Shown in pieces: positions 26,356-30,098 of a stretch of DNA of 64,000 nucleotides; the first letter of the stretch is position 1, and every line of letters starts with the position of its first letter. This DNA is from Burkholderia sp. HI2500 (GTDB lineage: Bacteria > Pseudomonadota > Gammaproteobacteria > Burkholderiales > Burkholderiaceae), in the NCBI RefSeq assembly GCF_002223055.1, contig NZ_NKFL01000004.1, positions 1,302,001 to 1,366,000 of the forward strand, in the 5' to 3' direction. The notes beneath the pieces were generated by a model. It made no database searches. It was not told where the DNA came from and saw only the letters and a program-made list of their open reading frames with translations. The translations under genes and the position numbers were made by a program.

Positions 26356-26763
26356 ATGACCGACAACGCATCGTCACGCGCGCGCGTCGAAGAACGATTT
26401 CGCGATGGGGAACGGCGCTTTTCGAAATTGGAGCGTCGAATCGATGAGAGCGATGAGCAGGTGAGGGCCCACCTACAGCTTCAGGATGAACACCTTCAGC
26501 GCCAGGACGAAAAGATCGACTCAATCGTCATCGCAGTGTCGACGATCCAGACGAACACGCAATCGATGGTCGACACGTGGGAGGGCGGCGCGCGCGTCGT
26601 CCGCGCGCTCTGTCGTCTTGCCGATGCGTGGCGCTTCCTCGTCCGGAACGTGGCCGGCCCGACGATCGCCTTCGGCACCGTCGGCGTGATCGTCTTCCGT
26701 TACCTGCGACACGAACCCATTCCCGATTGGGCGAGCGCGGTCGTGAAACTGCTTCTGGGATGA
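26356..26763 (+). CDS. Membrane protein of the lysis cassette (possible holin)
   Basis: Encodes 135 residues: a charged coiled-coil N-terminus (residues ~1-60, RVEERFRDGERRFSKLERRIDE) and one hydrophobic segment near 100-116 (GPTIAFGTVGVIVFRYL). It directly precedes the endolysin with an ATGA overlap. Could be a single-pass holin, antiholin or spanin-like accessory; sequence alone does not decide. Confidence 0.6.
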   Translation: MTDNASSRARVEERFRDGERRFSKLERRIDESDEQVRAHLQLQDEHLQRQDEKIDSIVIAVSTIQTNTQSMVDTWEGGARVVRALCRLADAWRFLVRNVAGPTIAFGTVGVIVFRYLRHEPIPDWASAVVKLLLG

Positions 26764-27408: not shown

Positions 27409-28041
27409 ATGACCCGATGCAGCCATGACGTCGCGCTCGAGCAGCGCTGCGAGAAGTGCACGGCCGAGGGGCTCGCGAGCCTCCCGAAGATCGCCGGCGA
27501 GCACGCCGTGCGCGTGACCGACGTTGAAATCGAGTACTACCCGGACCACCCGCCGCGCACCGAGTCGGAAACGTTTCGCCACACGAAGAAGGTCGGCCAT
27601 GCGGCCGGCCTGCGCTGTTCGATCAGCGGCCAGCCGGCGCCCGAGTATCACCATCTGTTCTGCGAGTGGGCAGATTCGGACGCGATCGACTGGGCAACCG
27701 TGCGCAGCGTCGCGCTGGGCGACGTTAAGGAACTGCCCGTGCTCGATCCGATCACCGACCAGCCGACGAAGGAACTGTATCCGGTCGAGGAATCGTTCCT
27801 GTGGCTCGTCTGCAAGCTAGTCGAGCTGCGCGGCTTCGACTGGCATGCGTTCGACCCGGAGAAGCCCGAGACCTTCGTCGACGCGATGACGAACATGCTG
27901 CCGCTGTCGGCGAAGTTCCACCGGTCGCCGACGCACGGCATCCATCACCGGTCGTTCCCGACTTTCGTGTTCCAGGCGTTCCCGCGCAAGGCCGGGTTCG
28001 TCTTCACCCCGGACGAGCTCGTCCAAGATCGCAAGGAGTAG
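27409..28041 (+). CDS. Possible HNH/His-Me finger-like phage protein
   Basis: Encodes 210 residues, unrecognised as a family. The order of a Cys pair (RCEKC, ~15-19), LRCSISGQPAPEYHHLF (~70-85) and, far downstream, NMLPLSAKFHRSPTHGIHHRS (~163-185) looks like the H, N and H of a His-Me finger nuclease with an insertion. It lies between the endolysin and a small membrane protein, an odd place for a nuclease. No membrane segment, so it is not a spanin. Confidence 0.5.
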   Translation: MTRCSHDVALEQRCEKCTAEGLASLPKIAGEHAVRVTDVEIEYYPDHPPRTESETFRHTKKVGHAAGLRCSISGQPAPEYHHLFCEWADSDAIDWATVRSVALGDVKELPVLDPITDQPTKELYPVEESFLWLVCKLVELRGFDWHAFDPEKPETFVDAMTNMLPLSAKFHRSPTHGIHHRSFPTFVFQAFPRKAGFVFTPDELVQDRKE

Positions 28042-28043
28042 CC

Positions 28044-28259
28044 ATGCCCGCACCCACCTCGAGCATCGTGACCGGTGGCGTCACGATCAGCGCCGCAACG
28101 GTCGAACCCGCAGTTCAATGGGCGCTCAGTGCGCTGGCGCATGCGCCGGTTCCGGAGAGCGTCTCGGTCCTCGTCACCGGCCTGGTGTGCGCAGCCGCGC
28201 ATGCCGTAATCAACCGCCTGATCGCGCGCAACGCCGTCCCGGCAGCGCCCCAGCTGTAA
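28044..28259 (+). CDS. Small membrane protein, possible holin
   Basis: Encodes 71 residues, 2 bases after the previous stop, with an AAGGAG site. Two weakly hydrophobic stretches (PAVQWALSALAHAP; VSVLVTGLVCAAAHAVINRLIA) and a short basic tail give a small holin-like profile. Assigned by size, topology and lysis location only. Confidence 0.5.
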   Translation: MPAPTSSIVTGGVTISAATVEPAVQWALSALAHAPVPESVSVLVTGLVCAAAHAVINRLIARNAVPAAPQL

Positions 28260-28302: not shown

Positions 28303-28980
28303 ATGAAGAAGCTCATGCTGCTCGCGGCAGGCATTGCCGCGTCCACTTTTCTCGTTTCCGGCTGCCAGTCGTTCGGCACGGTTCAACAATCGCCGGCCCA
28401 GATTGCCGCAGTCTTGTGTCCGGCAACCAACAGCGCAATCACCCAGATCTCGGCGTTCAATGCGGCCATGGCGCCGACGTTGCCGTCCGCTGCGAATGCG
28501 AACGTCGTGATTGAAAAGACCGTCAAGCCAATCGTCGCCGGCGCGTGTGCGGCCGGCGCGACCATCACGTCGACGAGCGTCCAAGCGCTTGTCACGCAGG
28601 GCATCCCGGCAATTGCAGGTGTCGTGGCGGCACTTCCGCTGGCGCCGACGACTCAGGCGGCCATCCAGGCAGGCTTTGCTGCAGCCGAGCTGGCCGTGAA
28701 TCTGGTCGGGACGTACGAAAACGCGCTCCAGGCCGCAAAGACTTCGACGTCGATTCCGGCGACGACTCCGGCCGCACCCATGACGCCGGAGGCGATGATG
28801 AAGTTTCAACCTGGCGACGTACTGACTGCGGAGGGTCTCAATCGGAACTTTCAATCTCTCAACCGCCGCCTCGAAACGCTTGAGTTGCGTATTCGCCCGA
28901 TCGATTTGAGCGCGGCATGGCAGATGCCGTTGATCGTCTCGCCTGCTTCGATGCCGCTCGCGGGCGCGCCGCTGCAATGA
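28303..28980 (+). CDS. Phage-encoded lipoprotein coupled to a lipase
   Basis: Encodes 225 residues with a lipoprotein signal (MKKLMLLAAGIAASTFLVSGC, lipobox LVSGC, Cys21). The mature protein is Ala/Thr-rich with helical stretches, a Pro-rich spacer near 150, and a predicted helix at FQSLNRRLETLELRIR. There is no Asp after the Cys, so outer-membrane sorting is expected. The stop overlaps the lipase ATG (28977), which implies joint production. It could assist envelope disruption or serve as a lysogenic-conversion factor; it is not a typical Rz1. Confidence 0.7.
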   Translation: MKKLMLLAAGIAASTFLVSGCQSFGTVQQSPAQIAAVLCPATNSAITQISAFNAAMAPTLPSAANANVVIEKTVKPIVAGACAAGATITSTSVQALVTQGIPAIAGVVAALPLAPTTQAAIQAGFAAAELAVNLVGTYENALQAAKTSTSIPATTPAAPMTPEAMMKFQPGDVLTAEGLNRNFQSLNRRLETLELRIRPIDLSAAWQMPLIVSPASMPLAGAPLQ

Positions 28981-29588
28981 CCCCGCGCGATTACGCGCTG
29001 CTCGCGCAGGAAGCGTATTCCGCAAAGCCGGACATCGGAAACGCGGATAGCGCCTCGCGCGCAATCGTGCGGCAGACACCCGGCGGCCTGGTCGTCGCCT
29101 TCCCGGGCACCGACAACCTCGACTGCGTAGCGGCCGATCTTGACGCGCATCCGATCGATGTGATCGGCATCGGCCAGGTGCATCACGGGTTCTGGAAGGC
29201 GTGGGGCGCGATCGCCGTTGACGTGCTCGCCTCGATCGACGGGCGGCCGGTGACGCTCGTCGGGCACTCGCTCGGCGCCGCGATCGCGATCATGGCTGCG
29301 GCCGCGATGGTGGTCGGCGGCCATCCGCCGGCGGCCGTCTACGGCTTCGAACCGCCGAGGGTGAGCACGAACGGGAGTGTTGGGGCGGTGCTCGCGAAGG
29401 TGCCGCTGAACCTGTTCAAGAACGGGAATGACATCGTGCCGGACCTGCCGCCCGACTGGCATCATGCCGGCCCGATCCGGCAAATCGGCCGCGCGGCGTT
29501 TCCGTTCCCGAACGTGACGGATCACGCGATTGCTCGGGTGATTGGTGCGCTGACCGCCGAATATGCGGCCGTCGCGGCTCAGAAATAG
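28977..29588 (+). CDS. Class 3 lipase-like hydrolase of the prophage
   Basis: Encodes 203 residues. The lipase class 3 pattern is complete: VVAFPGTDNL near 39-48, the nucleophile GHSLG (S98), YGFEPPRVS (matching the family FGxPRVG block), NGNDIVPDLP (Asp) and TDHAIARV (His). No signal peptide is visible, so it would need a holin, lysis or a partner to reach lipid. It is coupled to the preceding lipoprotein. Substrate could be phospholipid or another ester; unknown. Confidence 0.82.
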   Translation: MTPRDYALLAQEAYSAKPDIGNADSASRAIVRQTPGGLVVAFPGTDNLDCVAADLDAHPIDVIGIGQVHHGFWKAWGAIAVDVLASIDGRPVTLVGHSLGAAIAIMAAAAMVVGGHPPAAVYGFEPPRVSTNGSVGAVLAKVPLNLFKNGNDIVPDLPPDWHHAGPIRQIGRAAFPFPNVTDHAIARVIGALTAEYAAVAAQK

Positions 29589-29880: not shown

Positions 29881-30050
29881 CGTGGAAAAATGGGGTCTGC
29901 ATGCGATATGGAGACCCGAGCGGCTGCCGAGAAGAAGGGGCGAAACGTTGGGAATGAAGTGAAAAAAAGACTGTTGAATCAAGGGCTAGTTTTCCTATAT
30001 TATTCCCACATGCGAGCCTGTGAGGCTTGATGGATAAGGATGGAACGCTA

Positions 30051-30098
30051 GGATTGTGATTCCTGTCGTCGTGGGTTCGAGTCCCATCAGCCACCCCA
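30051..30098 (+). repeat. attR: duplicated 3' part of tRNA-His at the prophage end
   Basis: Starting at GGATTGTGATTCC the sequence matches the anticodon arm (GTG anticodon), T arm (GGGTTCGAGTCCC), acceptor 3' strand and CCA of tRNA-His. The 5' half (D arm, acceptor 5' strand) is absent; prophage-type sequence precedes instead. This is the host remnant left when a phage integrates into tRNA-His and restores the gene at its other end, which should carry the intact tRNA to the left of the window. Not a functional tRNA. Confidence 0.9.

Follow-up and report, generated by a model that had tools for sequence, protein, structure and literature searches.

A lipoprotein and lipolytic-enzyme gene pair as a candidate outer-membrane lytic module in a Burkholderia prophage

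A stretch of 64,000 nucleotides from Burkholderia sp. HI2500 (contig NZ_NKFL01000004.1, positions 1,302,001 to 1,366,000 of the forward strand), referred to here as the window, includes the right-hand end of a prophage whose last gene block encodes a lipoprotein and a class 3 lipase. The two proteins probably form a two-part lytic module that acts on the outer membrane and is used in place of spanins, a reading built on gene order, family membership and comparison of related loci. The related loci suggest that Gram-negative cells can be opened by another route, one based on enzymes, in which the lipoprotein anchor is kept, unrelated lipolytic enzymes are swapped behind it and standard spanins are mostly absent. 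The pair is laid out as follows.

28303..28980, + strand: lipoprotein of 225 amino acids with lipobox LVSGC; cysteines 21, 39 and 82 invariant in its family, a predicted helical core and an extra C-terminal stretch
28977..29588, + strand: class 3 lipase of 203 amino acids, an alpha/beta-hydrolase with putative triad S98/D152/H183 and no signal peptide

Both open reading frames (ORFs) were confirmed as described in the original prediction, made from the DNA letters, which had noted that the genes overlap by ATGA. These four nucleotides are shared by the stop of the lipoprotein gene and the start of the lipase gene, and translation of the lipase is predicted to be coupled to that of the lipoprotein through them. 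Identification of the lipase by its motifs also held: GHSLG, NGNDIVPDLP and TDHAI are present, and the protein matches PF01764 (Lipase_3) with an expect value (E) of 4e-14 and 53 bits, relative to a curated cut-off of 22, and the phrog_21992 esterase/lipase family with E 3e-66. Residues S98, D152 and H183, named as the triad by motif and position, are invariant in 16 aligned homologues and again in 27. Ratios of nonsynonymous to synonymous substitution lie at 0.10-0.15 in six lipase pairs, at 0.12-0.18 in four lipoprotein pairs and at 0.15-0.19 for the patatin that replaces the lipase in some relatives; this purifying selection shows that the lipoprotein and lipase genes are in use. Lipase homologues number 766 proteins at E 1e-3, and among the 120 matches listed the named ones are mostly from Burkholderia and Paraburkholderia, the closest (95%) being from Burkholderia cenocepacia. 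Scans of viral contigs gave 82 confirmed lipase loci, 80 of which were kept, and genome contigs gave 5; nine of 61 whole genomes, the host's own included, have a lipase match at E 0.001, five of these at 81% identity or more. Two phage records, OK094664.1 and OP650936.1, are both 47902 base pairs (bp) long, give identical match statistics and carry a cassette whose lipase is 92% identical to that of the present Burkholderia-type prophage. One is entered as a phage of Shewanella and the other as a phage of 'Hujiaoplasma' (Tenericutes), host assignments that seem doubtful.

That the module serves lipid hydrolysis is indicated most strongly by its enzymes, which come from three unrelated lipolytic families yet follow one and the same lipoprotein. 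In L185 and L186 (L-numbers are labels of loci from the sequence scans), a patatin-like gene stands at the place of the lipase, and the endolysins are 89% and 83% identical to that of the window. The L186 patatin matches PF01734 (E 9e-29), and its counterpart in L185 is 81% identical to it. A patatin scan gave eight loci, one of which (L343) lies in the same record as L186. In L185, L186, L344, L346, L347, L348 and L349 an intact patatin gene overlaps or abuts a lipoprotein gene of this kind, and the lipoprotein gene of L345 ends about 250 nucleotides upstream of the patatin. In L350 the patatin is truncated at its nucleophile end, the lipoprotein is absent and an Rz/Rz1 pair (PF03245) is present. 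A divergent class 3 lipase (E 1e-5) was found in L107. Two scans anchored on the lipoprotein gave 28 loci, several of them in records already known and two ending at a contig edge; all 26 with downstream sequence run into a gene of a lipolytic family, namely 15 class 3 lipases (in L365 with an extra gene before it), 5 patatins, 5 DUF1353 genes and 1 divergent lipase, mostly read from translation, with PF07087 confirmed for four of the five DUF1353 proteins and PF01734 for L376 (E 3e-28). Nine mature lipoproteins were compared, and those ahead of patatin, class 3 lipase and DUF1353 genes are 78-85% identical between groups.

The founder of the DUF1353 family, TtaP, is reported as an experimentally demonstrated phospholipase A2, and its authors consider that other DUF1353 proteins likely share this activity (PMC11525133, text available in part). 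The DUF1353 profile has no relative in PDB (best E 0.64). The DUF1353 proteins match phrog_1158, labelled 'tail assembly chaperone', a label that may mislead because a DUF1353 protein has published phospholipase A2 activity. The lipase, patatin, DUF1353 protein and divergent lipase all lack a signal peptide. The maximum 15-residue mean of N-terminal hydropathy is 0.54 for the lipase and 1.05 for the endolysin, in agreement with the original prediction that neither is exported by a signal of its own; it is 0.88 for the patatin, 0.59 for the DUF1353 protein and 0.81 for the divergent lipase, and 2.26 for the lipoprotein. This is what would be expected if the enzymes left the cytoplasm by a holin lesion together with a soluble endolysin.

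The lipase is also constant in its company. Among the 76 lipase loci with at least 4 kilobases (kb) of upstream sequence, an endolysin lies upstream within 3 kb in 60 and within 6 kb in 72. By seed, GH19 accounts for 30 loci, two groups of GH24 for 15 and 13, GH108 for 4 and a group assigned by eye as glucosaminidase-like for 12, with 2 unmatched; Pfam confirmed examples of GH19, GH24 and GH108. Genes for a lysozyme, a 69-amino-acid membrane protein, the lipoprotein and the lipase follow one another almost without gaps in L032.

The lipobox LVSGC places the lipidated cysteine of the window lipoprotein at residue 21. Among 96 enzyme loci (85 lipase loci from viral and genome contigs, two phage records and nine patatin or divergent-lipase loci), a lipobox ORF was recognised upstream of the enzyme in 84, and the lipoprotein ends at -1 to +4 nucleotides from the enzyme start in 81. 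None was recognised in L028, L064-L068, L091, L092, L094, L098, L102 and L103. Inspection by eye found a weaker lipobox ORF that overlaps the enzyme in L064 and L068, the lipoprotein one gene upstream of the lipase in L028, and other lipobox ORFs in L092 and L094; a lipobox ORF lies further upstream in L066, L067 and L103, and L102 starts at a contig edge. Similar small genes stand between lipoprotein and lipase in L028 (-305..+3) and L365, loci that look unrelated, so the coupling can be interrupted. In 19 of the 85 lipase loci a second small lipoprotein of 62-107 amino acids, mostly with a Cys-Cys motif, precedes the main one; it sits between the 70-amino-acid gene and the pair in L036, L041, L042, L045, L050, L051, L061, L086 and others, is also found ahead of the patatin module (L186, L349), and is possibly another part of the module.

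A single-linkage BLAST cluster takes in 78 of the 81 distinct lipoproteins, leaving L088, L095 and L097 outside. The lipidated cysteine and two further cysteines (C39 and C82 in the window copy) are invariant in 48 aligned lipoproteins, exactly three cysteines occur in 64 of the 78 family members, and aspartate at position +2 occurs in none of the 78. Aspartate at this position retains lipoproteins in the inner membrane; its lack therefore fits sorting to the outer membrane. A profile search gave 129 homologues, and no Pfam domain is present in any of the 120 among the matches listed. The window lipoprotein matches no Pfam or PHROG family, none of 45 family members matches a spanin PHROG at E 0.01, though the lipobox is present, and the family profile finds nothing better than E 0.55 in PDB. 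An AlphaFold2 model places four helices within residues 31-147, with block values of the predicted local distance difference test of 72-87 for residues 31-140 and a whole-chain mean of 68, suggesting with moderate confidence that the protein has a helical core. The model has no match at E 0.001 among the 17 viral structures listed, and a tblastn search of the lipoprotein against the phage set gave no match, although two phages there encode a relative. The extra C-terminal stretch, encoded at 28790-28960 (FQPGDVLTAEGLNRNF...), is found nowhere else in the window and recurs in a few relatives, with either enzyme (L022, L031, L349).

The prophage is intact, 44.4 kb long and bounded by 49-bp att repeats, with its right-hand 30 kb inside the window. 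Eight genes of its left side were scanned, and six belong to terminase, portal, head maturation protease, tail sheath, tape measure and baseplate hub families; of the other two, one matches a transposase family and one has no match. To the right, the tail-fibre genes are followed on the + strand by a 135-amino-acid gene, the endolysin gene, an HNH gene and a 71-amino-acid gene, and then by the lipoprotein and lipase genes.

26356..26763, + strand: candidate holin of 135 amino acids, with a charged N-terminal part and a C-terminal membrane segment
26760..27332, + strand: GH19 endolysin without signal peptide (PF00182, E 3e-9; phrog_181 endolysin, E 4e-56)
27409..28041, + strand: HNH-family gene within the cassette (phrog_8048, E 8e-32)
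28044..28259, + strand: small membrane protein of 71 amino acids, candidate second holin or antiholin
30050..30098, + strand: attR, a 49-bp exact copy of the histidine transfer RNA gene's (tRNA-His) 3' end, with the pair as the final gene block ahead of it

The tRNA-His end, of which attR is an exact repeat, lies 44.4 kb leftward at the left end of the prophage. The original prediction had placed the pair right after the endolysin and a holin-like gene. The pair does end the lysis region, but the HNH gene intervenes between the endolysin and the 71-amino-acid gene, as an HNH-family gene precedes the pair in many relatives too. The holin-like label stays putative: neither membrane protein matches a holin family, the 135-amino-acid protein having no match better than E 0.004 in Pfam and PHROGs, and the 71-amino-acid protein no Pfam or PHROG family beyond E 0.05. 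Homologues of the former have the same location in BgManors32 (NC_070955), an isolated temperate phage that also carries the pair, and in its relatives, and the latter is the usual neighbour of the lipoprotein in relatives. A simple scan found no promoter-like site on the + strand between 25000 and 29974, and terminator-like sites are at chance level (4 found, 3.7 expected).

Spanins were sought in the whole prophage in six frames, with every ATG, GTG and TTG start, as lipobox ORFs and as adjacent ORFs whose N-terminus forms a membrane segment; applied to phage lambda, a scan of this kind recovers Rz/Rz1. The window lipoprotein is the only lipobox ORF on the + strand of the prophage, and looser patterns add one spurious-looking ORF on the - strand. 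The lipobox was widened for a later scan, since a narrower pattern had missed the real Rz1 of L077. None of the prophage frames yielded an Rz/Rz1 pair, with the wider lipobox included; a pair hidden in embedded frames was accordingly rejected, which agrees with the original prediction, as does the lack of a true pair elsewhere in the prophage. No ORF with an N-terminal membrane segment is paired as an i-spanin with the lipoprotein or with another lipobox ORF in the same six-frame scan. The lipoprotein was also rejected as a u-spanin: its hydrophobic segments start at residues 4 and 95 of 225, and none is near the C-terminus. More than 330 kb away in the same chromosome, a DUF2514 (Rz-like) gene at C4:955364 lies beside a lysozyme-like gene (region C4:954096-955747), a locus that is probably another prophage with ordinary spanins.

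In the proposed mechanism, the lipoprotein would leave the cytoplasm during late gene expression, become lipidated and be sorted to the outer membrane, while the enzyme, having no export signal, would build up in the cytoplasm alongside the endolysin. Once a holin opens the inner membrane, both soluble proteins would enter the periplasm, where the endolysin would cleave the peptidoglycan and the lipase would dock on, or be activated by, the lipoprotein at the outer membrane. Deacylation of outer-membrane phospholipids would then yield lysophospholipids and fatty acids, and these products would break the membrane. What the sequences show is the gene order, the coupling, the conservation, the family membership, the exchange of three enzyme families behind one lipoprotein family and the scarcity of Rz/Rz1; the location of the lipoprotein, the docking, the substrate, the timing and a function in lysis are inferred from them.

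Replacement of spanins was examined through three scans anchored on endolysins. An endolysin could be placed in 240 loci, and 194 of these have 1.5 kb or more of downstream sequence and 1 kb or more upstream. An Rz/Rz1-type pair accompanies none of 21 loci with a class 3 lipase, divergent lipase or patatin and 59 of 173 loci without one (Fisher p 6e-4); after dereplication at 90% endolysin identity, still without counting DUF1353, the figures are 0/19 and 25/98 (p 0.012). When DUF1353 is counted too, the pair is found in 0 of 33 lipolytic loci and 59 of 161 others (p 2e-6), or 0/28 and 25/89 after dereplication (p 5e-4). The L088, L095 and L350 loci, which are without the family lipoprotein, hint that, of the pair, it is the lipoprotein that takes over from a spanin: in L088, Rz/Rz1 occupies the place where the lipoprotein would stand.

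Several points weigh against the module as a spanin replacement. The p-values above ignore kinship and host differences, the Rz scan misses pairs, DUF1353 was added to the test only after being seen, and 102 of the 161 loci without a lipolytic enzyme show neither system. The contrast is weaker at the level of families: among 51 lipase records or genomes, drawn from 83 possible sources, PF03245 is present in one, and among 50 records used for comparison it is present in 11; for phrog_1026 the counts are 4 of 51 and 8 of 50 at E 0.01, or 2 and 3 at E 1e-4. That family also gives matches in two unrelated control genomes, and the comparison set is itself not clean, as L281 and L282 carry a divergent lipase, L350 a truncated patatin and seven records a DUF1353 gene. 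In the lipase set only, DUF2514 occurs in four of the 51 at E 0.01, two over the cut-off (one being the host's other locus), and phrog_1275 in three, one strongly. L077 has Rz/Rz1 and, about 3 kb on, a complete lipoprotein-lipase pair; L088 has Rz (phrog_1026) and Rz1 (phrog_1275) directly ahead of the lipase and no family lipoprotein; and the lipoprotein ahead of the lipase in L095 has a C-terminal membrane segment, like a u-spanin. A spanin supplied in trans is conceivable, because the bacterium carries a DUF2514 gene elsewhere. The only candidate holins are the putative 71- and 135-amino-acid ones, one of 45 lipoprotein relatives weakly matches the Cor superinfection-exclusion family (E 0.002), and deletion of TtaP in its own setting gave no envelope phenotype in the assays of its authors (PMC11525133, in part). 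L019 was considered as a further counter-example and rejected, since its DUF2514 gene has a separate lysozyme next to it and is some 22 kb away from the lipase, in a second lysis cassette. The role in lysis put forward in the original prediction is much strengthened by the several endolysin families, the enzyme exchange and the rarity or absence of Rz/Rz1, and its interpretation as a whole is partly supported; given L077 and L088, the lipase is not strictly a spanin substitute.

These two loci, which retain the lipase beside Rz/Rz1, also favour an accessory release enzyme, in which the pair would aid lysis or progeny dispersal by degrading envelope debris, vesicles or surface lipids, and rupture of the outer membrane would be left to mechanical stress or to a spanin or disruptin that has escaped recognition. 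Spanins are not always easy to identify, 102 enzyme-less loci show no pair either, and 19 of the 85 lipase loci have the second small lipoprotein. This explanation is rather unlikely, given that the window lipoprotein is the only + strand lipobox ORF of the prophage, that no Rz/Rz1-type pair accompanies any of the 33 lipolytic loci, and that the enzyme has a conserved lipoprotein partner predicted to face the periplasm.

Lysogenic conversion or superinfection exclusion, the alternative that the original prediction had itself raised, would have the lipoprotein coat or mask the envelope and the lipase remodel the lipids of the lysogen. The pair adjoins attR, a usual place for cargo genes, the lipoproteins diverge fast, and there is the weak Cor match, which the window lipoprotein itself does not share by profile. 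However, the pair lies on the same strand as the lysis genes and close behind them with no + strand promoter-like site found in the region scanned, it keeps constant company with endolysins of several families, and it is exchanged with Rz/Rz1 in L088 and L350. Because it lacks a signal peptide, the enzyme has no Sec-dependent path to the envelope as long as the lysogen is intact. This alternative is weakened and improbable. Less probable by far is an anti-phage defence in which a phospholipase effector is restrained by its partner: the patatin form does match PADLOC phospholipase effectors (best E 7e-7), but no PADLOC match at E 0.01 was found for the window lipase, the lipoprotein, the two membrane proteins, a DUF1353 protein or the L107 hydrolase, a cytoplasmic enzyme is unlikely to be held in check by a lipoprotein located in a different compartment, and the setting is a lysis cassette.

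The proposed spanin-replacing module is a concrete candidate with many relatives. If it acts as proposed, lysis by Gram-negative phages would be tied to lipid chemistry, a lipoprotein family without a Pfam domain among the matches listed would gain a function, and a role would be suggested for prophage DUF1353 genes. A broader and more tentative proposal is that of a third class of Gram-negative phage outer-membrane disruptors, in which the three-cysteine lipoprotein family could offer a docking site on the periplasmic face of the outer membrane to phospholipases that are unrelated but interchangeable (class 3 lipase, patatin, DUF1353-type), leave the cell interior through the holin with the endolysin and break the membrane by lipid hydrolysis in place of spanins. 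On that reading, prophage DUF1353 genes in general may be lysis phospholipases.

No paper on a lipoprotein-lipase pair of this kind was found in the open-access literature, most subscription journals lying outside that scope, and a survey of spanins, in which 91 of 677 phages had none, does not use the word lipase in the text available (PMC6139136). Like the two-component spanins typified by lambda Rz/Rz1, the module follows a holin and endolysin, has a predicted outer-membrane lipoprotein and takes the place that Rz/Rz1 holds in L088; unlike them, it has no inner-membrane partner, a soluble lipolytic enzyme being the partner instead, and its lipoprotein is larger, predicted to be helical and in no spanin family. 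The unimolecular spanins (T1 gp11) are likewise single lipoproteins of a lysis cassette, but the window lipoprotein lacks their C-terminal membrane segment; in L095 the lipase may truly be accompanied by a u-spanin-like lipoprotein. Disruptins, as in phage phiKT, also disrupt the outer membrane independently of spanins (PMC12819732, in part), but are short amphipathic peptides rather than a lipoprotein of 225 and a hydrolase of 203 amino acids.

Lipolytic enzymes have been placed in phage lysis before. LysB of mycobacteriophage Ms6 is a lipolytic enzyme that acts as a third lysis step, parallel to spanins, but it targets the mycolyl-arabinogalactan of mycobacteria and no lipoprotein partner is mentioned in the text available (PMC5707550); the likeness drawn in the original prediction is one of concept only. 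A phage patatin has been proposed for spanin-free lysis by phage WO, whose host Wolbachia has no detected peptidoglycan and for which the available text describes a holin-like and an ankyrin protein, with no canonical endolysin and no lipoprotein mentioned (PMC9203015). A phage of Pseudomonas syringae pv. actinidiae has a GDSL lipase gene in its lysis cassette, the product of which showed esterase activity in an endolysin fusion; it differs in its GDSL hydrolase annotation with a carbohydrate-binding domain and its position upstream of holin and endolysin, and the accessible part of the paper mentions no lipoprotein partner (PMC12173070). TtaP belongs to the same family as the DUF1353 enzymes behind the module lipoprotein and is encoded in a genetic islet with a muramidase, but that islet is a toxin islet, and TtaP was found not to be secreted and had no envelope phenotype in the assays reported in the text available (PMC11525133).
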